Origin: Niveispirillum lacus
Lineage (GTDB): Bacteria; Pseudomonadota; Alphaproteobacteria; Azospirillales; Azospirillaceae
DNA length: 64,000 nt
Reading direction: 5' to 3'
NCBI RefSeq assembly: GCF_002251795.1
Contig: NZ_NOXU01000030.1
Coordinates: 434,001-498,000, forward strand
In this document: in pieces, positions 8,805 through 61,275 of the stretch
How the letters are laid out: each line of letters opens with the position of its first letter
Numbering within the stretch: position 1 is the first letter of the stretch
Notes under the pieces: generated by a model
Databases searched by the model: none
The model's input: only the letters and a program-made list of their open reading frames with translations
What the model was told of the DNA's origin: nothing
Translations under genes and position numbers: made by a program

Positions 8805-8827
8805 ATCTTCAGGATCGGGATGATGGT

Positions 8828-9448: not shown

Positions 9449-9486
9449 GGTCGCGTTCCGGTGCGGCATTGATTGAGGGGCGGGGT

Positions 9487-11158: not shown

Positions 11159-11181
11159 AATGCCTGAAACGAAACATAGTA

Positions 11182-15170: not shown

Positions 15171-15509
15171 TTAGCGTTCGTCGCCTGCCGGCTCTGTCTT
15201 GGCCAGCACGGCGGTGATGGTGGAGCGCAGGACGCGGACGCGGACATTTTCGGCGATTTCCACCGTTGCTTCGTCGTCGGCGACCTTGACGATGGTGCCG
15301 ACGATACCGCCGCCGGTGACGACCTTGTCACCCCGGCGCAGCGCTTCCAGCATCGCCTTGTGCTCTTTCAGCTTCTTTTGCTGCGGACGGATCAGCAGGA
15401 AATAGAAGACGACAAAAATCAGCACCAGCGGGGCCAGCGACATCAGGGATTCCATGCCGCCACCCGGCGCACCGGCAGCGGCCTGGGCATAGGCCGTGGA
15501 AATGAACAT
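15171..15509 (-). CDS. yajC: Preprotein translocase subunit YajC
   Basis: A 112-residue inner-membrane accessory of the Sec translocon (SecDF-YajC). A single membrane helix (LAPLVLIFVVFYFLLIRPQQKKLKEH) is followed by the conserved cytosolic domain LRRGDKVVTGGGIVGTIVKV. I start at ATG 15509, where GAGGAG lies 6 bases upstream and the product begins MFISTAYAQ, as in many alphaproteobacterial homologues. The frame's 44 extra upstream codons are not credible. The DUF815 ATPase gene diverges from it, as commonly seen in alphaproteobacteria. secD/secF are not in the window. Confidence 0.96.
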   Translation of the reverse strand: MFISTAYAQAAAGAPGGGMESLMSLAPLVLIFVVFYFLLIRPQQKKLKEHKAMLEALRRGDKVVTGGGIVGTIVKVADDEATVEIAENVRVRVLRSTITAVLAKTEPAGDER

Positions 15510-15714
15510 CAACTGCTCCTCGAATTCTGCTAAATGGCCGGCGGTGCCGGCAGCGGGACTATACAAGCCATCGGGGCCGTTGCAACTGAAACCGGCCAAC
15601 TGCCATGCGGCAACCGGGCTTCGGCACGCAGCCGGCCCCATGCTAGCGTGCGGCCATCACATCTGGTCCCAGCACCCTGGCCGTGCAAGGGGCAGCAACA
15701 TTATTTAGAGTGAT

Positions 15715-43471: not shown

Positions 43472-43686
43472 GTGGAGCCTCGAAAAATCCTGGGCACACG
43501 CGGTGCAGCACCTGCGAACTCTGTTCATTTAGGCCGCGCTGCCGCGATGCAAAGTGATAACTGTCACAGTTAACGGGCCGAATGCCAACGCTGCAATTTG
43601 TCTAACCCGGCATGCATGGCCTATGCGCCGCCGTTGCATGCTGCTAAATGGGCGTGCCCTGAACCGTCCGCCTGACTGCATCGCCC

Positions 43687-46294: not shown

Positions 46295-48064
46295 ATGAAC
46301 GGCTTTCAAACCTTGTTGGAACAGTACGCCATGGTCACGCCCACCCCCTCTAAGCATGCGCTTTCCTCCCGTCTGGCGGATTTCGCCACGGTGCCGGAAG
46401 CGATCACTTATGCCGCTAAGGGGGAGACCGGTCTGAATTTCTATTCCGGCAAGGGTGAACTGACCGAAGCGCTGCCTTACAGTCAGATGTATGACCAGGG
46501 TGTTGATCTGGCGAGGCGCATGCTGGCCAAGGGGCTGGTGAAGGGCGATCGTGTCGCCATCATCGCAGAAAGCGATGGCGATTTCATGCGGGCCTTCACC
46601 GCCTGCCAGTTTGCCGGCCTGGTTCCGGCCCCGCTACCGCTGCCAGCAGCGTTTGGCGGCAAGGATGCCTATATCGACCATATCCGCCGCATGATGCAGG
46701 GGGCGGATGCTGCTGCCGTCTTGTCGCCGGCGTCTTTGAAGGATTGGGTGCTGACGGCGGCTGATGGGTTGGGGATGAAGGCGGTGGGCACGCTTGCCGT
46801 GTTCGACGATGTCGATGGGGCCGGGATTACCCTGCCGACCGTGGGCCCTGACGATCTCTGCTATCTGCAATTCTCTTCCGGCAGCACCCGCTTTCCGCTG
46901 GGCGTGGCGGTGACGCAGAAGGCGCTGATGGCCAATGCCCATGCCATTACCCATCACGGGCTGAAGATCACGGCGGCCGACCGCTGTGTTTCGTGGCTGC
47001 CGCTCTATCACGATATGGGGCTGGTCGGCTTTTTGCTGACTCCGCTGGTCTGCCAGGTTTCCATTGATTATCTGCCGACCCGTGAGTTTGCCCGCCGGCC
47101 GCTGTTGTGGCTGCACCTGATCACCCGCAATGGTGGCACCCTGTCCTATAGTCCCAGCTTCGGGTACGAACTGGCCGCCCGGCGGGCGGAAACCGCATCG
47201 ACGGAAGGGATTGACCTGTCCACATGGCGCGGGGCTGGTATCGGCGGTGATATGGTTCGTCCCCGCGTGCTGCGTAAATTTGTCGACGCCTTTGCCCCCC
47301 GCGGCTTTCGTCCCGGTGCACTTGTTCCCTCTTATGGCATGGCCGAAGCGGCGCTGGCCTTGTCCTTCGCGCCGCTGGGCGTTGGTCTTGTCACCGACCG
47401 CGTTGATCTGGACAGGTTGGAAGGCGACGCGGTGGCCGTGCCGCCAGGGCCGCAGACGGCGCGTGAACGGGAATTTGTCCTCAACGGCCCGATCCTGCCC
47501 GGTCACGCGATTGAGGTGCGGGACCCCGACGGCAGTTTGCTGGGCGAAAAACAGGTGGGGCGCCTGTTCGTCCGGGGGCCCTCGCTGATGCGGGAATATT
47601 TCAACCGGCTGGAAGAAACCGCTGCTGTGCTGTCGGCCGATGGCTGGCTGGATACGGGTGACCTCGGCTATCTCTGCCAGGGCCAGATTGTGATCACGGG
47701 TCGGGCCAAGGATCTGATCCTGGTTAATGGCCGCAACATCTGGCCACAGGATCTGGAATGGTCGGCCGAACATTCCATCGACAGTTTGCGCAGCGGTGAC
47801 GTTGTCGCCTTTTCCGTCGATGGCGATGGCGGGGAACAGGTGGTGGTGCTGGTGCAGTGCCGCCCGACCCAGGAAGAGGCGCGCGCCGCCCTGGCGGCAC
47901 AGGTACAAGGTGTACTGCGCGCCGCTCACGGGCTGGAGGTGAAGGTGGTGCTGGTCCCCACCCATTCGCTGCCCCAGACATCATCCGGCAAACTGTCACG
48001 CACCAAGGCACGGCAGATGCTGCTGGCTGGTGAGTTCGGCGCCAACGCCATGCTGTCCGCCTGA
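46295..48064 (+). CDS. Fatty acyl-AMP ligase / acyl-ACP synthetase
   Basis: A 589-residue adenylate-forming enzyme of the FAAL type that activates a fatty acid with ATP, here probably to load the dedicated ACP downstream for sphingolipid synthesis. It has YLQFSSGSTRFPLGVAVTQ (P-loop), SWLPLYHDMGLVGFLL, PSYGMAEAALAL, DGWLDTGDLGYL, GRAKDLILVNGRNIWPQDLE and the C-terminal Lys in TSSGKLSRTKAR. Caulobacter carries an acyl-CoA/ACP synthetase in its ceramide locus. A different-frame ATG with a stronger Shine-Dalgarno (46276, 25 codons) overlaps this start. ATG 46331 is an alternative start. Confidence 0.88.
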   Translation: MNGFQTLLEQYAMVTPTPSKHALSSRLADFATVPEAITYAAKGETGLNFYSGKGELTEALPYSQMYDQGVDLARRMLAKGLVKGDRVAIIAESDGDFMRAFTACQFAGLVPAPLPLPAAFGGKDAYIDHIRRMMQGADAAAVLSPASLKDWVLTAADGLGMKAVGTLAVFDDVDGAGITLPTVGPDDLCYLQFSSGSTRFPLGVAVTQKALMANAHAITHHGLKITAADRCVSWLPLYHDMGLVGFLLTPLVCQVSIDYLPTREFARRPLLWLHLITRNGGTLSYSPSFGYELAARRAETASTEGIDLSTWRGAGIGGDMVRPRVLRKFVDAFAPRGFRPGALVPSYGMAEAALALSFAPLGVGLVTDRVDLDRLEGDAVAVPPGPQTAREREFVLNGPILPGHAIEVRDPDGSLLGEKQVGRLFVRGPSLMREYFNRLEETAAVLSADGWLDTGDLGYLCQGQIVITGRAKDLILVNGRNIWPQDLEWSAEHSIDSLRSGDVVAFSVDGDGGEQVVVLVQCRPTQEEARAALAAQVQGVLRAAHGLEVKVVLVPTHSLPQTSSGKLSRTKARQMLLAGEFGANAMLSA

Positions 48065-48066
48065 TC

Positions 48067-49011
48067 ATGGCGCTGGCCGCCATCACCGGTGGCACCGGCT
48101 TTCTGGGCCGCTACATTGTGGCGGCCCTGCACCGCGCCGGTTTTGGCGTGCGGATGCTGGTGCGTCAGGACTCTGTGCATCCGCTGCTGGCCGATCTGCG
48201 GCCAGAACTGGTGCTGGGTGACCTGCATGATGACGCGGCCCTGGCCCGGCTGGTAACGGGGGCGGATGTCATCATCCACGCCGCGGGCCTGATCAAGGCC
48301 AGGGACCGGGCGCAGTTCTTCGCTGTGAATGAAGGCGGGTCTGCCCGCGTGGGCCGGGCGGTCGCGGCCCATGCCCCCGGCGCCCGCCTGCTGGTGATCT
48401 CCAGTCAGGCCGCGACACAGCCGCACCTGTCCCACTATGCCGCCAGCAAGCGGGCAGGAGAGGTTGCCGCCATTGCTGCCTATGGTGGGGACGACTGGTG
48501 CATTGTGCGCCCGCCGGCCATCTACGGTCCCTGGGACCGCGAAACCCTGTCCCTGTTCAAGGCGGCGGCTGGCCCCGTGGTGCCGGTCCTGGGGGGGCGC
48601 GATGCGCGGCTGGCCATGATACAGGTCGACGATGCCGCCGCCGCCATCGCCGCCCTGGCCGCCCCTGGTGGGCCCTGTGGGCAGTCATTTGGCCTGTGTG
48701 ACGGGGTGACGGGCGGTTACGACTGGACCAATATCCTGGATTGTGCCGCCGATGCCCTGGGGCACCGTGCAGCCCGTGTCCGGGTTCCCGTGCTGCTGTT
48801 GCGGGCCATCGGGCTGGGCGGCAGCATCACCGCGGCGCTGACAGGTAAAGCCGTCATGCTGACCTTGCCCAAGACGCGGGAGATCACCCATGCGGACTGG
48901 TCCCTCGCGTCGCAGCAGATGCCGCCTGAATCGCTGTGGAAACCCCGCGTGGGGCTGCGGGAAGGCTTTGCCGGTGCGGCAAAATGGTACCGTGATCATC
49001 GCTGGATATAG
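48067..49011 (+). CDS. cerR: NAD(P)-dependent epimerase/dehydratase, ceramide reductase (CerR)-like
   Basis: A 314-residue extended short-chain dehydrogenase. It has the Rossmann motif ITGGTGFLGRYIVAALHRAGF, ADVIIHAAGLIKA, and the catalytic pair Tyr124-Lys128 (HYAASK). It starts 2 bp after the acyl ligase stop and precedes acp-spt. In Caulobacter the equivalent gene, cerR, reduces the keto group of N-acylated 3-ketosphinganine to give dihydroceramide. I assign the same role by context plus family; sequence alone would only say SDR. Confidence 0.85.
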   Translation: MALAAITGGTGFLGRYIVAALHRAGFGVRMLVRQDSVHPLLADLRPELVLGDLHDDAALARLVTGADVIIHAAGLIKARDRAQFFAVNEGGSARVGRAVAAHAPGARLLVISSQAATQPHLSHYAASKRAGEVAAIAAYGGDDWCIVRPPAIYGPWDRETLSLFKAAAGPVVPVLGGRDARLAMIQVDDAAAAIAALAAPGGPCGQSFGLCDGVTGGYDWTNILDCAADALGHRAARVRVPVLLLRAIGLGGSITAALTGKAVMLTLPKTREITHADWSLASQQMPPESLWKPRVGLREGFAGAAKWYRDHRWI

Positions 49012-49222
49012 CGATCTGAACAAAGTTCGCTTCAAACTGTTGCGAATTTACCCGTCCCTGTGTCATCTGTCACAGGTGTTTCATGCATTTTGTGGTTTGC
49101 TCTTGCTTCCTACTGCGTTGCAACTACCTTACCGGAACGTGACGCTTTAAGGACAGATGTCGGGGGGCACCGGCATCTTCGCAACTTCAACAATCTGTAC
49201 GACTGGTTACCGGGGCGCTTTA

Positions 49223-49474
49223 ATGACTACCGACGTCAACGACATCGTCGAAACCATCATCGCCGCCCTTGTAAAGACCTTGCCAACGCCGGTCACCGTT
49301 ACGACGGAGACCAGCATCACGCGTGATCTCGGCCTGGACAGTCTGGCCGTTATGGATTTCGTGATGGTGCTTGAGGATCAGTTCGATGTCTCGATCCCGA
49401 TGGAACGGATCGCAGAGGTCGAAACCATCGGCGACTTGGCCAGGACCATATCGGAACTCCGGGGGCACGCCTGA
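49223..49474 (+). CDS. Acyl carrier protein dedicated to sphingolipid synthesis
   Basis: An 83-residue ACP with the phosphopantetheine site DLGLDSLAVMDF (Ser40). It starts 210 bp after cerR and ends 3 bp before spt. In Caulobacter an ACP beside spt supplies the acyl thioester to serine palmitoyltransferase, so this should carry the fatty acyl group loaded by the upstream ligase. ATG 49223 follows GGGGCG; the frame's upstream codons do not resemble an ACP. Confidence 0.92.
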   Translation: MTTDVNDIVETIIAALVKTLPTPVTVTTETSITRDLGLDSLAVMDFVMVLEDQFDVSIPMERIAEVETIGDLARTISELRGHA

Positions 49475-49477: not shown

Positions 49478-50695
49478 ATGACGATCCTTGCCAAGTACAC
49501 AAAACTCCGTGAGCATTACCACCGCATCGCCGGCGCTGGCCGTGATCCGTTCACGGTGAAGTTCGACGCCATGCTCTCCCCGACGGAGGGTATGCTGAAC
49601 GGTCGCCGCACGATCCTGCTCGGCACCAACAATTATCTGGGCCTGACCTTCGATCAGAGCTGCATCGACAAGGGTGTCGAAGCGCTGAAATCGTTCGGCA
49701 CCGGCACCACCGGTTCGCGGATCGCCAATGGCAGTTACGATGGCCATGCGGCGCTGGAACGTGAACTGGCCGCTTTTTATGGCCGTGAAAGCTGCATGGT
49801 CTTCACGACCGGCTATCAGGCCAATCTCGGCATTATTTCTACGCTGGTTGGTAAGGATGACCTGCTGTTCCTGGACAGCGACAGCCATGCCAGCATTTAT
49901 GATGCGGCCAAAATGACCCCGGCCCAGGTCATTCGGTTCCGTCACAATGATCCCGAAGACCTGAATAAGCGTCTGCGCCGCGTCGCCGATCATCCCGGCA
50001 ACAAGCTGGTGGTGGTCGAAGGCATCTATTCGATGCTGGGCGATGTGGCTCCGCTGAAGGAATTCGCCCAGGTCAAGCGGGAGAATGGCGTTTATCTGCT
50101 GGTGGACGAAGCCCATTCCATGGGTGTGCTGGGGGAAACCGGCCGTGGTCTGGCGCAGGAAGTGGGCGTTGAGGATGATGTCGATTTCATCGTCGGCACC
50201 TTCTCCAAGAGCTTGGGTGCGGTCGGCGGTTTCTGCGTCTCCGACCTGCCGGACTTTGACGTGATGCGGGTGGCCTGCCGCCCCTACATGTTCACGGCCT
50301 CGCTGCCGCCCTCGGTCATCGCCACCTGCCTGCGCTCGCTGGAGCGGTTGCAGGAAGAGCCGGGTCTGCGCCACAAGCTGATGGCCAATTCCAAGCGTCT
50401 CTATGACGGCCTGCGTAATCTGGGTTTCCAGGTGGGGCCGGATGTCAACCCGATCGTGGCGGTGTCCTTGCCGTCGATCGAATTGGCGATCACCTTCTGG
50501 AACCGTCTGCTGGAAGAGGGGCTGTATCTGAACCTCGCCTTGCCGCCGGCGACCCCCAACAGCCAGTCGCTGCTGCGCACCTCTGTCAGTGCAGCCCACA
50601 CGACCAAGCAGATCGACACGGCCATCGAACTGTTCGCTAAGGTGGCCCGGCAGTTGGGCGTGCAGCCGGCCCTGGTCCAGACTGCGGCCGAGTAA
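49478..50695 (+). CDS. spt: Serine palmitoyltransferase
   Basis: A 405-residue PLP enzyme of the alpha-oxoamine synthase family that condenses serine with an acyl thioester to 3-ketosphinganine, the first committed step of sphingolipids. Conserved features include LLGTNNYLGLT, SRIANGSYDGHAALE (His stacking on PLP), VDEAHSMGVLGETGRG and the PLP Lys244 in GTFSKSLGAVGG. The family also includes KBL and AONS, but the adjoining ACP, ceramide-reductase and ceramide synthase genes fix the role as SPT. It starts 3 bp after the ACP. Confidence 0.95.
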   Translation: MTILAKYTKLREHYHRIAGAGRDPFTVKFDAMLSPTEGMLNGRRTILLGTNNYLGLTFDQSCIDKGVEALKSFGTGTTGSRIANGSYDGHAALERELAAFYGRESCMVFTTGYQANLGIISTLVGKDDLLFLDSDSHASIYDAAKMTPAQVIRFRHNDPEDLNKRLRRVADHPGNKLVVVEGIYSMLGDVAPLKEFAQVKRENGVYLLVDEAHSMGVLGETGRGLAQEVGVEDDVDFIVGTFSKSLGAVGGFCVSDLPDFDVMRVACRPYMFTASLPPSVIATCLRSLERLQEEPGLRHKLMANSKRLYDGLRNLGFQVGPDVNPIVAVSLPSIELAITFWNRLLEEGLYLNLALPPATPNSQSLLRTSVSAAHTTKQIDTAIELFAKVARQLGVQPALVQTAAE

Positions 50696-50760: not shown

Positions 50761-51384
50761 TCAGGTCGGTACCCGCCACAAGGTGGCCAGCCAGTTCTGC
50801 TGATACCGGGGCTGCCCCTCCGGGCGGCGCCATTCGTCGATCAGGCAAAAACCCGCTGCCTTGACCGCGGCTTTCCAGCTTTGTGGACGGCGGAAGGCCA
50901 GATAACGCCCGTCCGGGGCCATGCCCTCCAGACCGTCGCCCACCGGATCACAGGCATAGAAAACCCCGCCTGGCCGCAACCAGCCGTGAAGGCGCGACAG
51001 GACAAAGGGCAGGGCGGCGCTGGGCAGATGGAAAAACAGATGATGGGCCCAGACCCCGTCAAACGCGGCCGCCTCCCAGGGGACGGGATCGGTTGACAGC
51101 AGGTCTACCACCTCCACGCTGCATCCTGTGCGCTCAGCCGCGATCAGGGCCAGGGCGGCGCTGCCATCGGCGCCGATGACCTCTGCTCCGGCATCGCGGA
51201 ACCCGATCAGGTCGCGCCCGCCACCGCAGCCCAGGTCGAGAAGGCGCAATGCCGTACCGCCCACCTGGGCCAGAAACCGGTGACGGGCGGTGGCGCTGTC
51301 ATGATCGGCCAAAAGATCGGCATAGTGCGCGGCATGCGCCTGATAGTGGGCAAGTGTGGGGTTCGCTGTGACCCGTCCCGTCAC
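50761..51384 (-). CDS. Class I SAM-dependent methyltransferase in the sphingolipid locus
   Basis: A 207-residue methyltransferase. The SAM loop is LRLLDLGCGGGRDLIGF, the acidic strand is EVIGADGSAA, then AFDGVWAHHLFFHLP and LRPGGVFYACD. I chose GTG 51384 because it overlaps the upstream stop (GTGA), while the longer frame lies inside the neighbouring gene. It is last in a minus-strand unit with the nucleotidyltransferase, kinase and CDP-alcohol transferase genes. It may methylate a headgroup, but many such small enzymes have other targets. Confidence 0.78.
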   Translation of the reverse strand: MTGRVTANPTLAHYQAHAAHYADLLADHDSATARHRFLAQVGGTALRLLDLGCGGGRDLIGFRDAGAEVIGADGSAALALIAAERTGCSVEVVDLLSTDPVPWEAAAFDGVWAHHLFFHLPSAALPFVLSRLHGWLRPGGVFYACDPVGDGLEGMAPDGRYLAFRRPQSWKAAVKAAGFCLIDEWRRPEGQPRYQQNWLATLWRVPT

Positions 51385-52316
51385 CGGATGGCCCCCATCC
51401 GTTTCAGCTTCCACAGGATATAGGGGGCACACAGGATCGGGTGGCGTCGTTGCCAGGGGGTGAGGTCCAGACGTACGCCGGAATGGCGGTGCAGTTTCCA
51501 CAGCAGGTAATCCACGCCGCCGGTGAAGGTAAAGGCGGCCTTGACCAGACGGGCGATGTTCAACCCCTTGCCGAACCGGCCGCGCCAGCGCCAGGCGCGG
51601 TCTCCTCGGGCACGGCGGGCCGGCGACAGCAGGGGCCGCAGACGCCCGTCGCCGATCTCCTCAAAGGCGACGCTGGCCGATGCCCAGGCCGGTGGCAGCA
51701 GGGCGGCATAGCGGTCGGCGGCGTGGTCGACGATGCTGATCCCGCGCGACGCCTTCTCCACCCGCAATTCGGCGCTGTAGGTGGCCTTGAACAGGGCCTC
51801 CCAATAATCCCTCGCCATACCCTCCGCCGGACCTAGAATCGCGGCCCAGCGCGCGGCGGTGGTCACGGCTTGCGCCACGGCATCGCGTACTGTCTGCCGT
51901 GCCGTTCCATCGCGTGCATGCGCCAGCATCACCGGTTGGGTGAACCGGGCCCAGATGGTGGTGTCGATGCAATCGAACCGGGTGGCGTTGGCGAACTGGT
52001 CGATACCCATCACCGCCACCTTGGCGCGCAGCGTATGGCCCTGCCAGGGAATTTCCCAATATTCCACACTGGGCGGCAACAGCCTGGTGGCCAGTGCCAG
52101 CGGCCGACTGCCCCGCCACCCGGTCAGACTGTCAACCAGCACATAGAAATCCAGCACCCCCTCCACATCCCCCGACCGCAGGTTGGAGCCATAGAACAGG
52201 ATGGCCGCCACATGCGCGCCGCCATGCGCCACCAGGGCGGCGACCAGGGCGGCGGCGGGGTCGGGCAGGCTGGTGTTCCATTCCTGCTCGATCAGGGTGG
52301 AAAGCGGCTCGGTCAC
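51381..52316 (-). CDS. Tam41-like nucleotidyltransferase (putative CDP-lipid synthase)
   Basis: A 311-residue protein with a nucleotidyltransferase-like site: ILFYGSNLRSG (Gly43-Ser44) followed by LDFYVLVD (Asp56...Asp62). This order resembles Tam41/Mmp37, the mitochondrial phosphatidate cytidylyltransferase (YGSG...DF-x-x-x-VD), and the following EYWEIPWQGHTLRAKVAVMGIDQF parallels Tam41's substrate region. It lies between a lipid kinase gene (GTGA overlap) and a methyltransferase gene (GTGA overlap). I infer CTP-dependent activation of a phospholipid acceptor, perhaps ceramide-1-phosphate. The family call is from pattern recognition and needs a profile search. Confidence 0.55.
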   Translation of the reverse strand: MTEPLSTLIEQEWNTSLPDPAAALVAALVAHGGAHVAAILFYGSNLRSGDVEGVLDFYVLVDSLTGWRGSRPLALATRLLPPSVEYWEIPWQGHTLRAKVAVMGIDQFANATRFDCIDTTIWARFTQPVMLAHARDGTARQTVRDAVAQAVTTAARWAAILGPAEGMARDYWEALFKATYSAELRVEKASRGISIVDHAADRYAALLPPAWASASVAFEEIGDGRLRPLLSPARRARGDRAWRWRGRFGKGLNIARLVKAAFTFTGGVDYLLWKLHRHSGVRLDLTPWQRRHPILCAPYILWKLKRMGAIR

Positions 52317-53263
52317 GGCTGGACGAAACGGATGCGGTCTGGGGCTGACAGGATGACACGGCCCGCCGGATAGGTCTCCCCATCCATGATCAGCGGCCGG
52401 GTCAGGCGCAGTTCGATCTGGTCTGCCCCGCCGGACCGGTAGGCACCGGTGCGGCGCATCGCCATACTGGGCCGCCCCGTCATCAGGCGCGGCAGCGCAC
52501 CCAGCAGGCCGGGCGGGTTCGCCGCCACATCCAGAAAGCGCAAGGGTTTGGTCCCCTCGTCCCAGAAGGGCCATAGGCCCAGGATCAGCTTGTCGAGTGT
52601 CGTGGCCAGGAACAGGAAACGGTTGCCGTCCTCGGCCGGAAGCTGATCGACAGTCGCACCCAACACTTCACCCGCCAGCCAGCCATGGCTGTCATTGCCG
52701 ATCAGGGCGCGGCCCAGAACACCGGCCATGGTCAGAGCCACGGCGATCTCCTGGGTGAAACCCGCCTTGTGGATGGCGGCATTGGCCAGATCGGTACCAC
52801 GGGTGAAGGCGCCAGCCCCCATGAACATGCCGCGCACGGGCCTGTGTTCGCCGTCCGGCCAATGCAGCGACAGGACAGGGCGTTGTGTCATGCGTGTGCC
52901 TAGTGTCCCCTCATGGGCTGCCCGCACCAGTCCGGCCAATCCCCGCGGCCCATATCCGGTGGTGCCGACATCGGCGGCAATCAGATTGGTTTTGCCTGCC
53001 GCCAGTATGGCCAGCGCGGGTGGTGCGGCACCATAGGCCGGCGGAAGGGCCGTCAGCACTTCCCGCACGGTCCCGTCGCCACCATCGACCGCGATGATGT
53101 CCACCCCGCTGTCGGCAAAGCCGCGCAAGACCTGCACCAGCTTTTCCGGCGTATCGGGGGCGGCCACATGGGCCCCGAACAGGCGCGCAGCATCGGCGGG
53201 CAGGGTATCGTTGCCTGCCTTGTTTCGATGGCTGAACGGGTTCCGGATGAGGCCGGGGATCAT
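52313..53263 (-). CDS. Diacylglycerol kinase-family lipid kinase, CpgB-type ceramide kinase candidate
   Basis: A 316-residue DAGK_cat-family enzyme. The nucleotide site is VDGGDGTVREVL (GGDGT, residues 61-65), with NPFSHRNK at the N-terminus, LAILAAGKTNLIAADVG and a late DGETYPAG. Caulobacter makes ceramide phosphates with CpgB, a kinase of this family in its sphingolipid locus. The position here among ceramide genes makes ceramide the likely substrate (inference). I start at ATG 53263; the frame to 53356 is not convincing. It follows the CDP-alcohol transferase by 143 bp and overlaps the next gene by 4 bp. Confidence 0.82.
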   Translation of the reverse strand: MIPGLIRNPFSHRNKAGNDTLPADAARLFGAHVAAPDTPEKLVQVLRGFADSGVDIIAVDGGDGTVREVLTALPPAYGAAPPALAILAAGKTNLIAADVGTTGYGPRGLAGLVRAAHEGTLGTRMTQRPVLSLHWPDGEHRPVRGMFMGAGAFTRGTDLANAAIHKAGFTQEIAVALTMAGVLGRALIGNDSHGWLAGEVLGATVDQLPAEDGNRFLFLATTLDKLILGLWPFWDEGTKPLRFLDVAANPPGLLGALPRLMTGRPSMAMRRTGAYRSGGADQIELRLTRPLIMDGETYPAGRVILSAPDRIRFVQP

Positions 53264-53406
53264 GATTGATGGCCCCCGGTGCGATTTCGCGCGGATGGTG
53301 GTGCCGAGCCTGCGGATGCAGGCCCCGGCACTGGCGGGGCGGAAGATGCTGACCAAGGGTCAAGATCTTCCGGCGATGATACAAGACCCAGGCGCGCCAT
53401 GACGGA

Positions 53407-54594
53407 TCAGGCAGACAGGTAAGACGTGATGGGGCCCTTTTTGGAGGCCTGCTCCGCCTGGATGATCTGCGCCATATGCACACCGAAACAGGCAACGATC
53501 CAAACGATCATCAGGGCCATGCCGATATCCGGGCGGCCCAGCAGGGTGGCCAGGGTCAGGATCACCAGATTGGGGTTACGCCGCGCCGTAATCAGTCGGA
53601 AAAAACTGTCGAACGGCCGCCAGGTATGCATGTCCAGATTGAAGCGCTTCAGGAAATAGCCTTCCTGCAGACGTTGGGACACATAGCCTACCCAGATAAT
53701 GACAATGGCGGCCGTTTCCCAGCCCCAGAGTGTCAGGCCCGCTGCCGACAGACCGGCAACCCAGGCCCACCACCAGAACGGTGGATGCACCAGATCAATG
53801 CCATGGTCGAAAATATTGCCCCATTTGCTGCTGGTCAGGGTGACGCGCGCCAGCTTGCCATCCACCGTATCCAGAAAGGTCATGATCCAGCCGGCAGCCA
53901 GACCCGGCAGGTAATGCCCTTCCGCGAACAGCCAGAGCGCCAATAGCATCAAGATGGCGCCGATACCGGTGACCATGTTCGGTGACAGGCCGATCACGGC
54001 GCACAGCTTGGTCACATGGCGGGCCGGCAGCGGCCAGACATATTTTGTCACCACATCGGTGACGCCCTTGTAACTGCCGGCGAACATGCGCTGCTCGATC
54101 CTGGGCAGTGCTTCCGGTGTCAGGCGCAGCAGGAACGGTGTCTCCCGTTTGCGCAGGGCGTGGTTATAGGACGATGACAGGTCATCGGGCACCAGCACGC
54201 GCAACCGTTCCGCCATTTCAGCCGGGACGACTCGGCTGTTGTTCAGCATCTGGGCAACCTCTGCCGCCTCGTCCGCGGCGACATGGGCTGCTACCGGTTC
54301 TTGGTTGCGGCTGTCCACCAGGATGGTGCCGGGGCGCTTGGCGAGATCGCGCACCAGAACTTCATCAAACACCCAGTCGGTGCGCAGCAAAAGATGGGCA
54401 CGGCCCTGGTCCTGCCCGTCCCAGGCCCGCACCTCCGTCACCCCGTTGCGCACACATTGGCGGCGCAGGCGTTCGGCGGATGTCATACCCCATAGGCGGA
54501 CCGGGTTATCGCCGATGGTGGCGGCCAGGGGCGGGGGGGTGTGTGCGGGATTGTTCTGGGCGGCGTGCGTGTCGGCGGACAAGGTATGAACCAT
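53407..54594 (-). CDS. CDP-alcohol phosphatidyltransferase with N-terminal nucleotidyltransferase-like domain
   Basis: A 395-residue membrane enzyme. The C-terminal part (about 190-390) carries an intact CDP-alcohol signature: D242-x2-D245-G-x2-A249-R250-x8-G259-x3-D263-x3-D267, with about six helices. Residues 25-150 form a soluble domain (GMTSAERLRRQCVRNGVTEV, LLLRTDWVFDEVLVRDLA) resembling a degenerate sugar-nucleotidyltransferase. Fusions of the two domains are known in inositol-phosphate lipid synthases. It would join a phosphorylated headgroup to a CDP-activated lipid, or the reverse. It heads the minus-strand unit and diverges from the phosphoesterase gene. Confidence 0.85.
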   Translation of the reverse strand: MVHTLSADTHAAQNNPAHTPPPLAATIGDNPVRLWGMTSAERLRRQCVRNGVTEVRAWDGQDQGRAHLLLRTDWVFDEVLVRDLAKRPGTILVDSRNQEPVAAHVAADEAAEVAQMLNNSRVVPAEMAERLRVLVPDDLSSSYNHALRKRETPFLLRLTPEALPRIEQRMFAGSYKGVTDVVTKYVWPLPARHVTKLCAVIGLSPNMVTGIGAILMLLALWLFAEGHYLPGLAAGWIMTFLDTVDGKLARVTLTSSKWGNIFDHGIDLVHPPFWWWAWVAGLSAAGLTLWGWETAAIVIIWVGYVSQRLQEGYFLKRFNLDMHTWRPFDSFFRLITARRNPNLVILTLATLLGRPDIGMALMIVWIVACFGVHMAQIIQAEQASKKGPITSYLSA

Positions 54595-54677
54595 GATCAG
54601 GTGATTTTCTTGACCGTCTACATACTCCCTGACGCGGGCTTTGCCTATCGCCCGTAAGGCATTGTAGCTTGCCTTTC

Positions 54678-55592
54678 ATGCAGCCCTATCGTTTTGCCCA
54701 TCTGTCCGACCCGCATTTGCCGCTGGCACCCGACCGACCACGGGGGCTGCAATGGCTGTCCAAGCGGACCTTGTCTTATCAATCCTGGCAGCGCCGACGC
54801 CGCTATGCCCACACACCCGCCATGTTGGGCGCCATCGTGGATGATATCCGGGCACATCAGGTGGATCATTGGGCGGTAACAGGGGATATCGCCAATATCT
54901 CCTTGCCCGGCGAGTTCCGGCGGGGGGCCGATTGGCTGCGTTCCCTGGGGGATGGGCGTCAGGTGTCTTATGTGCCCGGCAACCATGACGCCATGGTGCC
55001 CGTGGACTTCGCCGATGGTCTTGGCCTGTGGGCCGACTATCTGCGCGGGGATGGGCAGGGGGAAGTGTCGTTTCCCTACCTGCGACAACGCGGGCCGGTT
55101 GCCTTCATCGGGGCCAATTCCGGCGTGCCGACCGCGCCTTTGCTGGCGCAAGGCCATCTGGGTCCTGAACAGCGGGAGCGGCTGGGCGACATGCTGGCTG
55201 ATGCGGCGCGGCGCGGGCTGTTCCGGGTGCTGATGGTGCATCATCCCGTGGCTGAAGGGGTGGTTTCCAGCCGCAAGGGCTTGACCGACCGCCACAATCT
55301 GCGCGACCTGCTGGCCCGGACGGGGGCAGAACTGCTGCTGCATGGTCATGCCCACAGGGCCAACCTTTCCATGATCCGGGGGCCGCTGGGTCCGATCCCC
55401 AGTCTCACCGCCCCGTCGGCATCGGCCATCGGCTATCATCATGATATGCCGGCCCGCTGGCACCTTGTGACGGTGGACACAGACGGGCCGGACTGGCAGG
55501 TGCAGGTGGAAGTGCGCGGCGTTGAAAGCCAGGGCACGCCAGTCAAGGCCCTGGGCGGTTGGCGCCTGCGGCTGCCCGTCGCGGGGGCCTGA
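54678..55592 (+). CDS. Calcineurin-like metallophosphoesterase
   Basis: A 304-residue phosphoesterase with all metal motifs: FAHLSDPH (Asp11, His13), VTGDIANIS, VPGNHD, MVHHPV and LHGHAHRA. It diverges from the CDP-alcohol transferase and heads the plus-strand group that includes ceramide synthase. A plausible job is dephosphorylating a lipid intermediate such as a phosphoglycerol-phosphate headgroup, or a regulatory nucleotide (inference). ATG 54678 is preferred; a TTG nine bases earlier is possible, and neither has a strong Shine-Dalgarno. Confidence 0.88.
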   Translation: MQPYRFAHLSDPHLPLAPDRPRGLQWLSKRTLSYQSWQRRRRYAHTPAMLGAIVDDIRAHQVDHWAVTGDIANISLPGEFRRGADWLRSLGDGRQVSYVPGNHDAMVPVDFADGLGLWADYLRGDGQGEVSFPYLRQRGPVAFIGANSGVPTAPLLAQGHLGPEQRERLGDMLADAARRGLFRVLMVHHPVAEGVVSSRKGLTDRHNLRDLLARTGAELLLHGHAHRANLSMIRGPLGPIPSLTAPSASAIGYHHDMPARWHLVTVDTDGPDWQVQVEVRGVESQGTPVKALGGWRLRLPVAGA

Positions 55593-55676
55593 CTGGCGGG
55601 GCAATAATGGTGGTTCCGGTCACCTTCGTTCCGCTCTAAAGTGCCCGTCCTGTTCACCTGTCGAGTAGCGCAACCG

Positions 55677-56123
55677 ATGACCCTGCCCAATGCCACCATG
55701 CTGAAATTCGGCTATCCGGCCAGCACCGTGGCGGAAACGGCACTGTGGTCGGTTCAGGTGCGGCCGCAGCAGCCGACTTTGGGGGCCCTGGTTCTGGTCT
55801 GCAAAGAACCGGTCACTGCCTTCGGCCAGCTCAGTCCCGCTGCCTTTGCCGAACTGCAAACCGTGGTGGCGCGGGTGGAACGGGTGCTGGCCCGCTTTAC
55901 CGCCTATCAGAAGATCAATTACCTGATGCTGATGATGGTGGACCCTGACGTGCATTTCCATGTCATCCCCCGGTATGAGGGGGTGCGGGACTATGCGGGC
56001 ATCCCCTTTGCCGATGCCGGCTGGCCGGGACCGCCTGCCCTTGCGCAGGCCGTGACCCTGGATAGCGGTGCCATAGCGGGCATCACCGCCGATCTCAAGG
56101 CCCTGTGGGTGGATGTGCCGTGA
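55677..56123 (+). CDS. HIT family protein
   Basis: A 148-residue histidine-triad nucleotide hydrolase/transferase-type protein. The motif is DPDVHFHVIPRYEG, with two of the triad histidines in HFH, and the preceding KINYLMLMMVDPD fits the family. HIT proteins cleave or transfer nucleoside phosphates; in this locus it could turn over a nucleotide-lipid or nucleotide-alcohol by-product (inference). I chose ATG 55677 over a GTG at 55641. Its stop overlaps the LptF-like GTG start (GTGA). Confidence 0.85.
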   Translation: MTLPNATMLKFGYPASTVAETALWSVQVRPQQPTLGALVLVCKEPVTAFGQLSPAAFAELQTVVARVERVLARFTAYQKINYLMLMMVDPDVHFHVIPRYEGVRDYAGIPFADAGWPGPPALAQAVTLDSGAIAGITADLKALWVDVP

Positions 56124-57370
56124 ACGGTGTCGTACCGCCGCCTGACCGGCATTACAAACTGCATTCCACCCGGCTGATCGACCGCTATATCCTGGCCGAG
56201 ACGCTGAAACCGCTGTTTGCATCGCTGCTGGTGGTACTGGTTGCGTTGCTGATGGAACGGCTGTTGCGGCTGTTCGACCTGCTGGCCAATCATGGCGGCC
56301 CGTTCGATATGGTCATCCGGCTGGTAGCCAATCTGGTGCCGCATTATCTGGGTCTGGCCCTGCCAGCGGCCTTTTTCATCTCCATGTTCATCATTGTCGC
56401 CCGGATGGGGGAAGATAATGAACTGGATGCGCTGCAATCCGCTGGTCTGTCGGTGCCGCGCATCGCACGGTCCTTTGTCGCCCTGGGCATGGCGCTGATG
56501 GTATTTTCCATCATCCTGTTCGGTTATCTGCAACCCTATGGCCGATATGGCTACAGCGCGATTTACCACATGGTGGTCAATGCCGCCTGGAACGCCACCG
56601 TACCGCAGGCCAGCTTTGTCGACGCCGGTGAGGGGGTGACCATTTCTGCCGATATGGTCGATGTCACCGGCCGTCGGCTGGAAAAGGTCTTTGTGCAGCA
56701 GGACCGTGACAATGGCGAACGCTGGGTGACCACCGCCGTCACCGGCGCCCTTGCCGCCAGCCCCGATCGGCAGCGCGTCCTGTTGACCTTGCATGATGGT
56801 GTGCAGGTGCGTTTGCTGCCGGATGGTCGGCGGCAGGTGATGGAATTCGCAGAACTGACCCTGGACAAGCCATTCCGCATGGTCACCGAACCGTTCCGTG
56901 AACGCGGCGGCAGCGAACGTGAACTGACCCTGCATGAGCTATGGTCGGAAATGCACGACCCGCAATCGATCCTGCCCCATGCCAAGGTTGCTTCCGAACT
57001 GCATGCGCGGTTGGCGCGGGCTCTGTCATTGCCGCTGCTGCCGTTGCTGGCGGTGCCCATGGGCATGGCGGCCAAACGTGCCCGGCGCGGGCAGGGGATC
57101 GCACTGGCCACTGTCATTTTGATCCTGTACCACCATCTGGTGCAATTGGGGGAAAGTCTGGGCGATGTCGGCCGCCTGTCGCCGGTCGTCGGGATCTGGG
57201 TGCCCTTTGCGCTGTTTTCCCTGCTCTGTGCTTGGTTATTCCATCGTGCCGATATCCGGCCGGGTGAGAATCCCTTTGCCGCCATGTTCGATACCATTGA
57301 TGCGGCTACCGGATTTGTGAAACGCCTGTTCCGGCGCCGCCGGAAAAAGCCGGAAGGGGGCAGGCCATGA
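56120..57370 (+). CDS. LptF/LptG-family permease (first of a pair)
   Basis: A 416-residue YjgP/YjgQ permease. The N-terminus is RLIDRYILAETLKPLFASLLVVLVALLMERLLRLFDLL, LPAAFFISMFIIVARMGEDNELDALQSAGLSVPRI matches LptF, a periplasmic jelly-roll middle follows, and C-terminal helices include LSLPLLPLLAVPMGMAAKRARRGQG. In the Lpt machine, LptF and LptG with LptB extract LPS from the inner membrane. Here the pair is embedded in a ceramide gene cluster without lptD or surA, so it may move sphingolipids instead (inference). GTG 56120 overlaps the HIT stop; the upstream frame lies inside it. Confidence 0.92.
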   Translation: MNGVVPPPDRHYKLHSTRLIDRYILAETLKPLFASLLVVLVALLMERLLRLFDLLANHGGPFDMVIRLVANLVPHYLGLALPAAFFISMFIIVARMGEDNELDALQSAGLSVPRIARSFVALGMALMVFSIILFGYLQPYGRYGYSAIYHMVVNAAWNATVPQASFVDAGEGVTISADMVDVTGRRLEKVFVQQDRDNGERWVTTAVTGALAASPDRQRVLLTLHDGVQVRLLPDGRRQVMEFAELTLDKPFRMVTEPFRERGGSERELTLHELWSEMHDPQSILPHAKVASELHARLARALSLPLLPLLAVPMGMAAKRARRGQGIALATVILILYHHLVQLGESLGDVGRLSPVVGIWVPFALFSLLCAWLFHRADIRPGENPFAAMFDTIDAATGFVKRLFRRRRKKPEGGRP

Positions 57371-58446
57371 ATCGCAGCACGATCACCCGCTACCTGACCC
57401 GTACCTTCCTGATGCGTGTGCTGTCGGTGCTGATTGCCCTGTCGGCCCTGTTGCAGTTGCTGGACCTGCTCGATGCTGCCTCTACCGTGCTGGAACGTGG
57501 GCTGGGTGGTAGTGGCCTGATCTATTACACCATGATCCGCCTGCCCATGGTTGTGGAACGGGTGGTGCCGCTGGCCGTGCTGATCGGTTCGCTATCCACC
57601 TTGTGGACCTTTGCATCAACCAATGAAATCGTGGCCATGCGTTCGGTCGGCATGACGCCGTACCAGATCATGGGCGCGCTGCTGCCAGCCGCCCTGGTCG
57701 TGGCCCTGGCCCATTTCATCCTGGCCGATCAGGTGGCGCCGCGTGCCGAGCGCAGTTTTGTCACCTGGTGGGCTGCGACCGAGCTGCCATCAGAGGCGAA
57801 GAAGGACGATCCGGTGAAACCGGTCTGGTTCCGGCTCGGGGATGATGTGGTCCGCATCGCCGCCATTGCCGATGATGGCCGCACGATCGAGGGGCTGGAA
57901 ATGGTCAGCCGCGATGCGCAGGGACGGGCCATTGGCCTGCTTTCGGCTGCACGCGGTGAACACCGTGCCGATGGCTGGCATCTGACCGATGTGGTCCGCA
58001 CCCGCATCGGTGAACCGCTGACTGTGACGCGGCAGGCCACGACCTTGTGGGATGTCGATCTCTCGCCCAACAATATGGTCGATCTGCGCAAACCGACGGA
58101 AAATATCTCTGTCCATCGGCTGCTGCGGATTGTGCGCGGCAACTGGGCGGGTGGCGAAAGCCCGGCCTTCTATGCCACGCGGCTGCATTCCACCTATGCC
58201 GCGCCCCTGGCCTCGCTGGTCATGCTGCTGCTGGCGGCCCCGGTTGCGCATGGCATGCGCCGGCGGGGTGGCGCTATGGGCAGTCTGGCGCTGGGCACCG
58301 TCATCGGGCTGGTCTTCCTGCTCTCCTCGGGCATCCTCAGTTCGATGGGCCAGGCGGGTGCCTTGCCAGCAGTGGTGGCCGTCTGGTCGCCCCTGATCTT
58401 CTTTGCGGCCATCGGCGGGGCCATCATGGTTTATGTGGAGGGGTAG
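57367..58446 (+). CDS. LptF/LptG-family permease (second of the pair)
   Basis: A 359-residue LptG-like permease. It begins STITRYLTRTFLMRVLSVLIALSALLQLLDLLDAAS, with IRLPMVVERVVPLAVLIGSLSTLWTFASTNEIVAMRSVGMTPYQI in the first membrane half and RLHSTYAAPLASLVMLLLAAPVAHGMRRRGG in the second. Its ATG overlaps the LptF-like stop (ATGA). The two should form a heterodimer. A 128-bp gap with two palindromes separates it from the next gene, the only sizeable break in this operon-like run. Confidence 0.93.
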   Translation: MNRSTITRYLTRTFLMRVLSVLIALSALLQLLDLLDAASTVLERGLGGSGLIYYTMIRLPMVVERVVPLAVLIGSLSTLWTFASTNEIVAMRSVGMTPYQIMGALLPAALVVALAHFILADQVAPRAERSFVTWWAATELPSEAKKDDPVKPVWFRLGDDVVRIAAIADDGRTIEGLEMVSRDAQGRAIGLLSAARGEHRADGWHLTDVVRTRIGEPLTVTRQATTLWDVDLSPNNMVDLRKPTENISVHRLLRIVRGNWAGGESPAFYATRLHSTYAAPLASLVMLLLAAPVAHGMRRRGGAMGSLALGTVIGLVFLLSSGILSSMGQAGALPAVVAVWSPLIFFAAIGGAIMVYVEG

Positions 58447-58574: not shown

Positions 58575-59357
58575 ATGTGGGGCGATGCCTGGCGCGGCCG
58601 CAGCTATGACCTCGGCAAGATGAACCTGCGGGATTTGGCGATTGCCTATTCCACATACCCGGCGATCCAGGCCTATGCGGCCCTGGCGCTGGTATCGGCG
58701 GTGCTGGCCGTGATCTGGACGGAGAATTGGGGCCGGATGGCGCTGACCGTGCTGGTGGCGACCCTGATCTATCCGATGGCCTGGTATCTGATCCATCGTT
58801 TCATTCTGCATGGCCGCTGGTTATACCGCATGAAATGGTCTGCCGCCCTGTGGAAGCGTATCCATTTCGATCATCATCAGGACCCGCATAAGCTGGAAGT
58901 GCTGTTCGGCAGCTTGGCCAACACCCTGCCGACGATTGCCCTGGTCACCGTGCCTGTCGGTTACCTGGTTGATGGCAAGGCGGCTGCGGCGACGGCGCTG
59001 GCCACCGGTCTGGTCACCACCTGCATCTATGAGTTTTTTCACTGCATTCAGCATCTGAACTACAAGCCGACCTGGAACTGGGTGGCCCGGATCAAACAGT
59101 TGCACCTCTATCATCACTTCCACAATGAAGACGGCAATTTCGGCATCATTTCTTATGGTCCCGACATGTTGCTGGGCACCTTCTATCGCGAAGCCCGGCA
59201 AAAGCCGCGCAGCCCGACGGTGTTCAACCTGGGTTATGATGTGGAAGAGGCAAAACGCTATCCCTGGGTGATGAACCTGACCGGCGCGCCGCCGCGTGAC
59301 CGTCCGCCGCGCCCGCCGGCCAGCGGCAACAGCGACAGTGTGAAGGCTGCATCTTGA
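58575..59357 (+). CDS. Fatty acid hydroxylase / sterol desaturase superfamily protein
   Basis: A 260-residue membrane di-iron oxygenase with four His clusters: LIHRFILHGR, IHFDHHQDPH, EFFHCIQHLNY and LHLYHHFHNE. This is the fatty acid hydroxylase superfamily, whose members hydroxylate or desaturate lipid chains using oxygen. Its place directly before the ceramide synthase (TTGA overlap) argues for hydroxylation of the long-chain base or acyl chain of ceramide (inference). The start is ATG 58575 with AAAGGG upstream. The tail is Pro-rich. Confidence 0.88.
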   Translation: MWGDAWRGRSYDLGKMNLRDLAIAYSTYPAIQAYAALALVSAVLAVIWTENWGRMALTVLVATLIYPMAWYLIHRFILHGRWLYRMKWSAALWKRIHFDHHQDPHKLEVLFGSLANTLPTIALVTVPVGYLVDGKAAAATALATGLVTTCIYEFFHCIQHLNYKPTWNWVARIKQLHLYHHFHNEDGNFGIISYGPDMLLGTFYREARQKPRSPTVFNLGYDVEEAKRYPWVMNLTGAPPRDRPPRPPASGNSDSVKAAS

Positions 59358-60508
59358 CCGCGGCGGCGGGCGGGGACGCCACGATCCGTATCGAACAGGT
59401 CGAACCCGGTTCCAAGGCGATGGATCGGTTCATCGCCCTGCCGTACCGCCTGCATGCCAGCGACCCGAACTGGGTGCCGCCCTTGTTGATGGAGCGACGG
59501 GAGACCCTGTCGCCCAAGACCAATCCCTATTTTCTGCATGCCGACGTCATGTATTTTCTGGCGTTGCGCGGTGACAATGTGGTGGGGCGCATCTCCGCCC
59601 AGATTGACCATGCCGGTCTGGAACTCCGCCAGGACGCCACTGGCCATTTCGGCCTGCTGGCCGCAGAGGATGACCAGGGCGTGGTCGATGCCCTGTTCGC
59701 GGCAGCCGCCGACTGGCTGCGGTCCCGTGGCATGGTGCGGATGGTCGGGCCCTTTAACCTCTCGATCAATGAGGAAACCGGCCTGCTGGTTGAGGGCTGG
59801 GACCGGCCGCCCATGCTGATGATGGGCCATGACCTGGCCTATCTGGGCCCGCGTGTCGAAGCGGCGGGTCTGGTCAAGGCCAAGGATGTCTATGCCTATC
59901 TCTATGATATCCAGGATCAGTTGCCCAAGGCGGTCCGCACCATGATCGAACGGCCTTTGCCGGCGGATCTGCGGGTGCGGATGCTGGATATGGCGCGCTA
60001 TGACCAGGAACTGGAAAGCATCACCAGCATTTTCAACAATGCCTGGTCTGGCAACTGGGGGTTCGTGCCCTTATCGGCGGCGGAAACCAAGCAGATGGCC
60101 AAGTCGCTGAAACTGCTCATCAACCCCAGGCTGGCCTGGATTGCGGAAGTCGGGGGTCGGCCCGTTGCTTTTGGTGTCTGCCTGCCCAACCTGAACGAAG
60201 CCATTGCCGATCTGGGGGGCAAACTGTTCCCACTTGGCATCATCAAGCTGCTCTGGCGGTTGAAGGTGAAGGGAGTGAAGACGGCGCGGGTGCCGCTGAT
60301 GGGTGTGCGCCGGGATGTCGGCGGTTGGCTGCAGGCGGTATTGCCCTTCCTGATCGTCGACAATATGCGCCTGGAAGCCCGCAAGCTGGGGTACCAGTGG
60401 ATAGAGCTGTCCTGGATTCTGGAAGATAACCGCCCCATGCGCCGTATCATTGAGGCGATCGGCTCCAACCGGTACAAGACCTACCGGCTTTACGAGCGCG
60501 CAGTGTGA
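59354..60508 (+). CDS. bcerS: Bacterial ceramide synthase (bCerS), GNAT-fold acyltransferase
   Basis: A 384-residue protein of the family typified by Caulobacter bCerS, which N-acylates 3-ketosphinganine or sphinganine in bacterial ceramide synthesis and is unrelated to eukaryotic ceramide synthases. The sequence starts with VEPGSKAMDRFIALPYRLHASDPNWVPPLLMERRE, and FNLSINEETGLLVEGWDRPPMLMM and NNAWSGNWGFVPLS follow; the end (YQWIELSWILEDNRPMRRIIEAIG) is GNAT-like. It starts with TTG overlapping the hydroxylase stop (TTGA), which would lower its translation relative to an ATG. It is coupled to the following nucleotidyltransferase gene. Confidence 0.88.
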   Translation: MTAAAGGDATIRIEQVEPGSKAMDRFIALPYRLHASDPNWVPPLLMERRETLSPKTNPYFLHADVMYFLALRGDNVVGRISAQIDHAGLELRQDATGHFGLLAAEDDQGVVDALFAAAADWLRSRGMVRMVGPFNLSINEETGLLVEGWDRPPMLMMGHDLAYLGPRVEAAGLVKAKDVYAYLYDIQDQLPKAVRTMIERPLPADLRVRMLDMARYDQELESITSIFNNAWSGNWGFVPLSAAETKQMAKSLKLLINPRLAWIAEVGGRPVAFGVCLPNLNEAIADLGGKLFPLGIIKLLWRLKVKGVKTARVPLMGVRRDVGGWLQAVLPFLIVDNMRLEARKLGYQWIELSWILEDNRPMRRIIEAIGSNRYKTYRLYERAV

Positions 60509-61275
60509 GCCCGATGGACACCCTTGTTCTGGCCGGTTCTCGTGGACCGGATGACCCGGTGGCCCGGCTGCGCGGGGTCAGCCATAAGGCCTTTGCGCCG
60601 ATCGCCGGGGTACCGATGCTGGTACGGGTGGTGCGGGCGCTGATTGCGGCGCCCGGTATCGGCATGATCCACATCGCCATCGAGCGGCCGGAACTGGTGG
60701 AACAACATCCGGAGTTGGGTCTGCTGCTGGCGGGCGGGCGCATCGCGCTGCTGCCGGCGGAGGGCAGCCCCAGCCGCACCGTCGCGGCGGCGCTTGATCT
60801 GCTGGGCACACCGCTGTTTGTGACAACGGCGGACCATGCCCTGCTGCGTCCGGAATGGGTGGATTATTTCCTGACCCATTTGCCGGAGAACAGCGATGTT
60901 TGTGTTGGCCTGGCCCGTGACAGCGTGGTGCAGGCTGCGGTGCCGGACACAAAACGCACCTGGTTGCGTTTTGCCGACGGGTCCTTTTCCGGCTGTAACA
61001 TGTTTGCCTTCCGCACCCCGGCGGCCCGCGCTGTGGCCCAGACCTGGCGGCAGGTGGAAGCCCAGCGCAAAAGCCCGCTGCGCATGATCCGCTTGCTGGG
61101 CCCGTTATCCATCCTGCGTTTTCTGTTGGGGCGTCTGACCCTGACAGCGGCCCTGGACCGGCTGGGTCGCATCACCGGTGCGCGCGCCGGGGTGGTGGAA
61201 ATGCCCTACGGTCTGGCGGCGGTTGATGTGGACAAGGCGGCGGACATTGATCTGGCCGAACGCCTGCTCACCTGA
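60505..61275 (+). CDS. Nucleotidyltransferase (GT-A/MobA-like), putative CTP:phosphoalcohol cytidylyltransferase
   Basis: A 256-residue NTP-transferase-fold protein. It starts MDTLVLAGSRGPDDPVARLRGVSHKAFAPIAGVPMLVRVVRAL, the usual sugar-nucleotidyltransferase nucleotide loop and Lys, and continues FVTTADHALLRPEWVDYFL for the metal-binding Asp. GTG 60505 overlaps the ceramide synthase stop. In this locus it might make a CDP- or other nucleotide-activated headgroup precursor. The activating-loop GG is altered to AGSRGP, so activity is uncertain. It resembles the N-terminal domain of the CDP-alcohol transferase in the same locus. Confidence 0.78.
   Translation: MSPMDTLVLAGSRGPDDPVARLRGVSHKAFAPIAGVPMLVRVVRALIAAPGIGMIHIAIERPELVEQHPELGLLLAGGRIALLPAEGSPSRTVAAALDLLGTPLFVTTADHALLRPEWVDYFLTHLPENSDVCVGLARDSVVQAAVPDTKRTWLRFADGSFSGCNMFAFRTPAARAVAQTWRQVEAQRKSPLRMIRLLGPLSILRFLLGRLTLTAALDRLGRITGARAGVVEMPYGLAAVDVDKAADIDLAERLLT

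Follow-up and report, generated by a model that had tools for sequence, protein, structure and literature searches.

The canonical extractor of lipopolysaccharide (LPS) is LptB2FG, for which solved complexes from E. coli, Klebsiella and Shigella are available (PDB 6mhu, 5l75 and 6s8h). No flippase or lipid transporter has been identified for bacterial sphingolipids (PMC11087976) and how these lipids are transported is not known (PMC11324152). A second LptF/LptG pair of Caulobacter crescentus, CC_1156/CC_1155, lies in a ceramide/phosphosphingolipid cluster; with CC_1168, these proteins have been named LptF2, LptG2 and LptC2 and proposed, as a proposal only, to move phosphosphingolipids to the outer membrane (PMC11324152). 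This was the only relevant report on LptF with serine palmitoyltransferase (Spt) or sphingolipid among the literature searched. Spt and the acyltransferase YghO of E. coli BL21 have been assigned to sphingolipid and dihydroceramide synthesis (PMC9386255). To this group can be added a pair of LptF/LptG-type permeases, here termed LptF2 and LptG2, in a 64 000-nucleotide stretch of the Niveispirillum lacus genome (the window; positions 434001–498000 of contig C14), where they lie within a ceramide cluster.

The window pair is like canonical LptB2FG in its match to PF03739, its predicted fold, its adjacent F and G genes, its coupling-helix glutamates and the single LptB of the genome. It differs in its location in a ceramide cluster, in being only about 21 % identical to the canonical pair of the same genome, in the loss of positive charge at the lipid-A gate and in being the sole pair in genomes that lack LPS genes. 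As in C. crescentus, a ceramide cluster houses the second pair. Caulobacter itself did not turn up in the genome scan for LptF2 relatives, and the case for orthology with the Caulobacter pair is made by the cluster and by Euryhalocaulis (L145), a member of the Caulobacterales that belongs to the clade of the window pair. Unlike in C. crescentus, for which an LptC2 is proposed, no LptC2 was found in the Niveispirillum genome or in related loci. E. coli BL21(DE3) also has a pair (ECD_RS14855/ECD_RS14850) beside spt, acp and genes for an epimerase, an acyl-AMP ligase and a flippase; it is annotated as LPS export and differs in belonging to another lineage (type 3, below), nearer to gammaproteobacterial LptFG. 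The evidence presented below, drawn from genome comparison, suggests that the window pair is likely a module of the Lpt machine dedicated to extracting sphingolipid, working on a shared LptB and a shared LptC–LptA–LptD trunk.

Both open reading frames were found on the + strand where the first-pass annotation had placed an LptF/LptG-type pair (56120–58446), and this assignment was upheld by family profiles and fold. PF03739 (cut-off 27.9 bits) matched LptF2 with an E-value of 3.6e-73, scored on a 408-aa translation starting at 56144, and LptG2 with 3.5e-72, over the full profile. The best NCBIfam model was LptF for LptF2 (225.7 bits, just short of the cut-off of 230) and LptG for LptG2 (above the cut-off of 240). 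AlphaFold models of LptF2 and LptG2 (predicted local distance difference test scores of 86 and 91) had as closest PDB chains the LptF and LptG, respectively, of solved LptB2FG complexes, with a predicted fold of transmembrane (TM) helices in which a periplasmic beta domain separates TM3 from TM4. Profile, fold and coupling-helix glutamates all agree with membership of the PF03739 family. The likely start of LptF2 is a GTG at 56120 that overlaps the stop codon of the upstream HIT gene (ccGTGA), with 56105 as an alternative start, and the LptF2/LptG2 junction is an ATGA. From these overlaps, HIT, LptF2 and LptG2 look translationally coupled; a gap of 128 bases separates LptG2 from the following fatty-acid hydroxylase. 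The reported coupling to HIT, with a ceramide hydroxylase and a ceramide synthase downstream, was confirmed by these overlaps, by a PF04116 match and by identity to YghO.

Genome counts were obtained by profile searches of the contigs of the genome. Four PF03739 matches were detected, comprising the window pair and a canonical pair, LptF1/LptG1, in a pepA-lptF-lptG-surA locus on contig C9. LptF2 shares 21 % identity with LptF1, and LptG2 likewise shares 21 % with LptG1. The suggestion of the first-pass annotation that the window pair could be a second copy was therefore correct; the possibility that the genome has no other pair was ruled out by the count of two, and with it the objection that would attach to a sole pair acting only in LPS transport. 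The usual neighbours given for lptF and lptG (pepA, lptD and surA) also held, with the canonical pair between pepA and surA, though lptD stands alone beside groEL. LptC, LptA and LptB are encoded together on contig C26. The genome has one LptD, a single PF06835 (LptC) match, at the lptC-lptA-lptB locus, and one ATPase above the curated LptB cut-off (371 against 240 bits; the runner-up scored 160). A second LptC was not detected by Pfam in the genome, nor by a custom profile over the type-2 loci examined, although a very divergent LptC2 would escape both. LpxC and LpxB are both present, indicating that LPS is made in this genome.

The number of pairs was associated with the presence of Spt. Within the family, all 18 genomes with four PF03739 matches (two pairs) have Spt, whereas Spt is absent from all 17 genomes with two matches (one pair; Fisher test, 2e-10). 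Spt was called by profile at E<=1e-100 in 17 of these 18 genomes, the exception being G023, in which spt is a fragment at a contig end. The comparison was extended to 134 alphaproteobacterial genomes, each at least 95 % complete, across which pair number follows LpxC plus Spt. Two pairs were present in 8 of 9 genomes with both LpxC and Spt and in 1 of 105 with LpxC alone. Genomes with Spt and no LpxC never had two pairs (0 of 13); twelve had exactly one and the other had none. Fisher P-values are only indicative, as the genomes are related to one another. The sole LpxC-positive, Spt-negative genome with two pairs (G056) carries a very divergent extra pair (L087 3997–14369), among genes that resemble, by eye from their translations, a pyridoxal-phosphate (PLP) oxoamine synthase, a myo-inositol-phosphate synthase, CdsA and a CDP-alcohol transferase. 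This extra pair possibly serves another lipid with its own LptFG.

Absence of LpxC and LpxB was used as a genomic proxy for missing LPS. Among the 13 Spt-positive genomes without LpxC, LpxB was also absent from 12, with a weak LpxB match in G084, and LptD was kept in 12. The single pair was type 2, the type of the window pair, in all 11 of these genomes that were typed, ten of which also lack LpxB. All 22 proteins of the 11 genomes scored as type 2, with margins of 63–279 bits, against type profile models trained on LpxC-positive Azospirillaceae genomes only, and the trees agree. In 10 of the 11, spt is no more than about 15 kb away from the pair. Type 2 alone thus goes with retention of the Lpt machine in genomes of organisms that seem to make no LPS. 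The one genome of the 13 without a pair, G091 (L174), encodes Spt, AasR, CerR, AcpR and CerS and has no match for LpxC, LpxB, LptFG or LptD, consistent with a sphingolipid producer without a recognizable Lpt route. Genome G016 was dropped as an LPS-less genome, as an LpxB match was present despite the lack of an LpxC match, and for the same reason the missing LpxC of G085, G088 and G144 was not counted as LPS loss; these four genomes are 95–100 % complete, and assembly gaps or an unrecognized deacetylase may explain the pattern. The alternative raised in the first-pass annotation, that LPS and sphingolipid export share one machine, does not fit these distributions, as LPS producers with Spt have a separate pair (8/9) and LPS-less genomes keep only type 2.

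Gene neighbourhoods followed the same association. All 32 LptF2 relatives on GTDB genome contigs sit among ceramide-cluster genes, and LptF2 and LptG2 are neighbours in every locus where both are readable. These relatives range from Azospirillaceae to Rhodobacterales, Caulobacterales (Euryhalocaulis) and Geminicoccaceae, the closest named ones being Niveispirillum-type Azospirillaceae. In both type-2 and type-3 loci the pair is constantly accompanied by ceramide genes, while head-group genes vary from locus to locus. Plasmid copies of the pair, inside comparable clusters, were found on a Roseomonas plasmid and on a conjugative IncP plasmid of Diaphorobacter. The latter, pDCB2 (L183/L189), carries mercury resistance and a whole ceramide-like cluster with LptFG, a nonribosomal-peptide-synthetase-like gene and a cytochrome P450.

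Phylogenetic trees, reconstructed jointly for LptF and LptG with FastTree supports, placed the window pair in type-2 clades of its own, apart from canonical LptF and LptG, and thereby provided the phylogeny that the first-pass annotation had proposed as a check. Type-2 LptF (47 sequences) was separated from canonical alphaproteobacterial LptF by node supports of 1.0 and 1.0; in an extended tree the type-2 LptF node had a support of 0.971 with 50 sequences, the divergent G056 sequence being left out. LptG2 was likewise separate from canonical LptG, with weaker basal support, and typing by profile models agreed. A sister genus of the same family (G011, G023, G028 and G031) has a different second pair, type 3, in its ceramide locus. 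In the trees it clusters with LptFG of gammaproteobacteria, and the E. coli pair beside spt and a pair next to ceramide genes on a Pseudomonas plasmid fall in the same group. Since type 2 and type 3 are separate lineages in ceramide loci, LptFG would have been recruited to such loci at least twice, independently. At the G011 type-3 locus (L079 9219–14181), a CDP-alcohol transferase, a nucleotidyltransferase and, by eye, an inositol-phosphate-synthase-like gene replace the head-group genes of the window, and the sphingolipid head group may be inositol phosphate.

The type-3 locus is common in E. coli. An lptF-lptG-spt-acp query matched 4111 of 5426 complete genomes (about 76 %), with 4041 of the matches over at least 80 % of the query. 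The locus lies between yghO/glcC and yghS/pitB, including in BL21(DE3) (L187 12838–16440; L193 BL21 5283–15843). At this position in K-12 MG1655 (L192 9044–12409), yghO and a shortened yghQ flank an IS5 element, and the ceramide and lptFG genes are missing; their absence may be the reason that the second E. coli pair was overlooked.

Residues that face LptB and residues that face the lipid showed different patterns. E84 of LptF and E88 of LptG (E. coli numbering) link to LptB (PMC5082905), and these glutamates are invariant in type 2 (47/47 LptF2 and 45/45 LptG2). LptG K40/K41 and LptF K317 are among the lipid A and core contacts (PMC6744409). The mean net charge of the gate changed from +0.9 in canonical pairs to −1.8 in type 2 at the end of LptG TM1, and from +0.8 to −1.3 at the end of LptF TM5, so that the positively charged gate of a canonical LPS exporter is lacking in type 2. 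Canonical alphaproteobacterial pairs have Arg-Arg at LptG 40/41, where LptG2 residues are usually uncharged or acidic (position 40 is non-basic in at least 43 of 45); LptF 317 is Glu in 35 of 47 LptF2 sequences, and LptF positions 30 and 33 remain basic. Growth was unaffected by K40E/K41E in LptG (PMC5548808), and single gate residues should therefore not be over-read. LptG K34 of E. coli was rejected as a specificity marker, as this position is Asp in type-2 LptG and in canonical alphaproteobacterial LptG alike. As the alignment of the TM3 end is ambiguous for LptG of canonical alphaproteobacterial pairs, the charge of the region was compared in place of R133/R136 of LptG.

These results are consistent with the following route. 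The neighbouring enzymes would make ceramide and attach its head group, and the sphingolipid would be flipped outward, perhaps by the MATE-like protein of the cluster. LptF2 and LptG2 would form a transmembrane channel docked through their coupling helices on the single LptB dimer of the cell. ATP hydrolysis would then lift the sphingolipid from the outer leaflet of the inner membrane onto the periplasmic jelly-roll domains of LptF2 and LptG2, from where it would pass along the shared LptC–LptA–LptD bridge to the cell surface. LptF1/LptG1 from the pepA locus would do the same job for LPS. We infer the substrate, the flippase role, the sharing of LptB and the use of the common bridge. The first-pass annotation had proposed a second copy specialized for sphingolipid extraction, which phylogeny, pair number, neighbourhood and LPS-less genomes all support; LptB, rather than another ATPase as it had also considered, is favoured as the power source by the single LptB over the cut-off and the invariant LptB-contacting glutamates. 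Use of the bridge is suggested because LptD is kept in LPS-less Spt-positive genomes and is absent together with LptFG in G091. As no LptC2 was detectable, LptC is probably common to both pairs here, unlike in the Caulobacter proposal.

Other explanations place the pair in a different role. It could extract sphingolipid and pass it to a carrier or bridge of its own in the periplasm (LptC2-like, MlaA-linked or other) instead of LptC–LptA–LptD, as the LptC2 proposed for Caulobacter (PMC11324152) and an MlaA gene beside the candidate flippase, here and in several relatives, would suggest. However, the genome has one LptC only, no type-2 locus examined contains an LptC-like gene, retention of LptD in 12 of 13 Spt-positive LpxC-less genomes is hard to explain if sphingolipid does not use it, and the one of these 13 that lacks LptD, G091, is also the one that lacks LptFG; a separate bridge is unlikely. 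Transport of another product of the cluster, or of a lipid in another direction, for which the putative roles of several cluster genes and the tentative head-group lipid of the species leave room, is improbable: what type-2 and type-3 loci have in common is the ceramide genes, while head-group genes differ. Sharing of a single LptB makes it possible that LptF2/LptG2 mix with LptF1/LptG1 into hybrid LptB2-F-G complexes, giving one transporter pool for both lipids. With identities between counterparts of only 21 %, the constant adjacency of LptF2 and LptG2 in readable loci and LPS-less genomes that manage with type 2 alone, such mixing is very improbable. Finally, the family assignment, including an LptG2 score above the curated LptG cut-off, would suit an exporter of LPS that is redundant, or active only under certain conditions, and is simply carried along with the ceramide operon. 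Such an exporter would be expected where LPS is made, yet type 2 is the only pair in the 11 typed LpxC-less genomes, including those without LpxB; extra pairs are nearly absent from LPS producers without Spt (1/105) and the gate charges for lipid A phosphates are lost. This explanation is already strongly disfavoured and has scarcely any likelihood left.

Several observations weigh against a dedicated sphingolipid-extraction module on the shared trunk. The case for sphingolipid transport by LptF2/LptG2 is drawn from comparative genomics, and phylogenetic non-independence of genomes and residues means that the P-values overstate the evidence. G100 has LPS and Spt and shows one pair only, and G091, with Spt and neither LptFG nor LptD, indicates that not every Spt producer uses this route. 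Nor is it obvious that an anionic phosphosphingolipid would need an acidic gate. The lack of a detected LptC2 here, though one is proposed for Caulobacter, means that the bridge may differ between species.

The ceramide cluster spans about 43.7 to 61.3 kb of the window (Table 1). Its first part, on the + strand, consists of the MATE-like candidate flippase, a protein without a Pfam match, AasR, CerR, AcpR and Spt. A − strand part follows with a methyltransferase, an unassigned conserved protein, a diacylglycerol (DAG)-kinase-like protein and a CDP-alcohol transferase; the last part, again on the + strand, runs from the metallophosphoesterase through HIT, LptF2, LptG2, the fatty-acid hydroxylase and ceramide synthase to the MobA-like nucleotidyltransferase. 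The MlaA gene (42650–43528) is divergent beside the candidate flippase, an arrangement also seen in several relatives (L074, L078/L126).

Table 1. Genes of the ceramide cluster in the window, with positions counted from its first nucleotide
Feature	Position	Strand	Evidence
Candidate flippase (polysaccharide-export/MATE-like)	43687..45048	+	PF01943; 31% identity to BL21 protein of same cluster
AasR, acyl-ACP synthetase	46295..48064	+	PF00501 2.7e-43
CerR, ceramide reductase (NAD-dependent epimerase family)	48067..49011	+	PF01370
AcpR, specialised acyl carrier protein (ACP)	49157..49474	+	PF00550
Spt, serine palmitoyltransferase	49478..50695	+	NF047599 677.5 bits (cut-off 500); 51% identity to E. 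coli BL21 Spt
Conserved cluster protein, start codon uncertain	51381..52286	-	No Pfam match; kept beside kinase in type-2 loci
DAG-kinase-like protein, probable ceramide kinase	52313..53356	-	PF00781 1.4e-10
CDP-alcohol phosphatidyltransferase, probable head-group gene	53407..54594	-	PF01066 1.1e-8
Metallophosphoesterase of cluster	54669..55592	+	PF00149
HIT-domain protein	55641..56123	+	PF01230 25.9 bits (cut-off 21.5); beside LptF2 in most type-2 loci
LptF2, second-copy LptF permease	56120..57370	+	PF03739 247 bits; TIGR04407 best; type-2 LptF clade
LptG2, second-copy LptG permease	57367..58446	+	PF03739 244 bits; TIGR04408 251.4 bits; ATGA overlap with LptF2
Fatty-acid hydroxylase	58575..59357	+	PF04116 7.6e-18
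Ceramide synthase (GNAT-like N-acyltransferase)	59354..60508	+	42% identity to BL21 YghO over 376 aa
MobA-like nucleotidyltransferase, probable head-group gene	60505..61275	+	PF12804 3.3e-11; conserved at cluster end

The idea of a sphingolipid LptFG has already been proposed for Caulobacter (PMC11324152). No report of the LpxC plus Spt rule, of LPS-less type-2 genomes, of a second recruitment or of E. coli LptFG beside spt was found in the literature searched, which was mostly without subscription journals and preprints. More generally, we lean slightly towards a scheme in which LptFG pairs are interchangeable lipid-specific extractors on one LptB and one LptC–LptA–LptD trunk, with one pair per outer-leaflet lipid. 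The sphingolipid version would have arisen at least twice, as type 2 in alphaproteobacteria and plasmids and as type 3 in gammaproteobacteria including most E. coli, and in LPS-less alphaproteobacteria the whole Lpt bridge would be a sphingolipid conduit. Such a module would provide the step that is lacking in the export of bacterial sphingolipids, and the present comparison extends a one-species proposal to a genome-wide rule with sharp predictions. The rule also accounts for the retention of LptD in LPS-less alphaproteobacteria, and E. coli BL21 would become a laboratory strain in which the lipid specificity of LptFG is directly testable.

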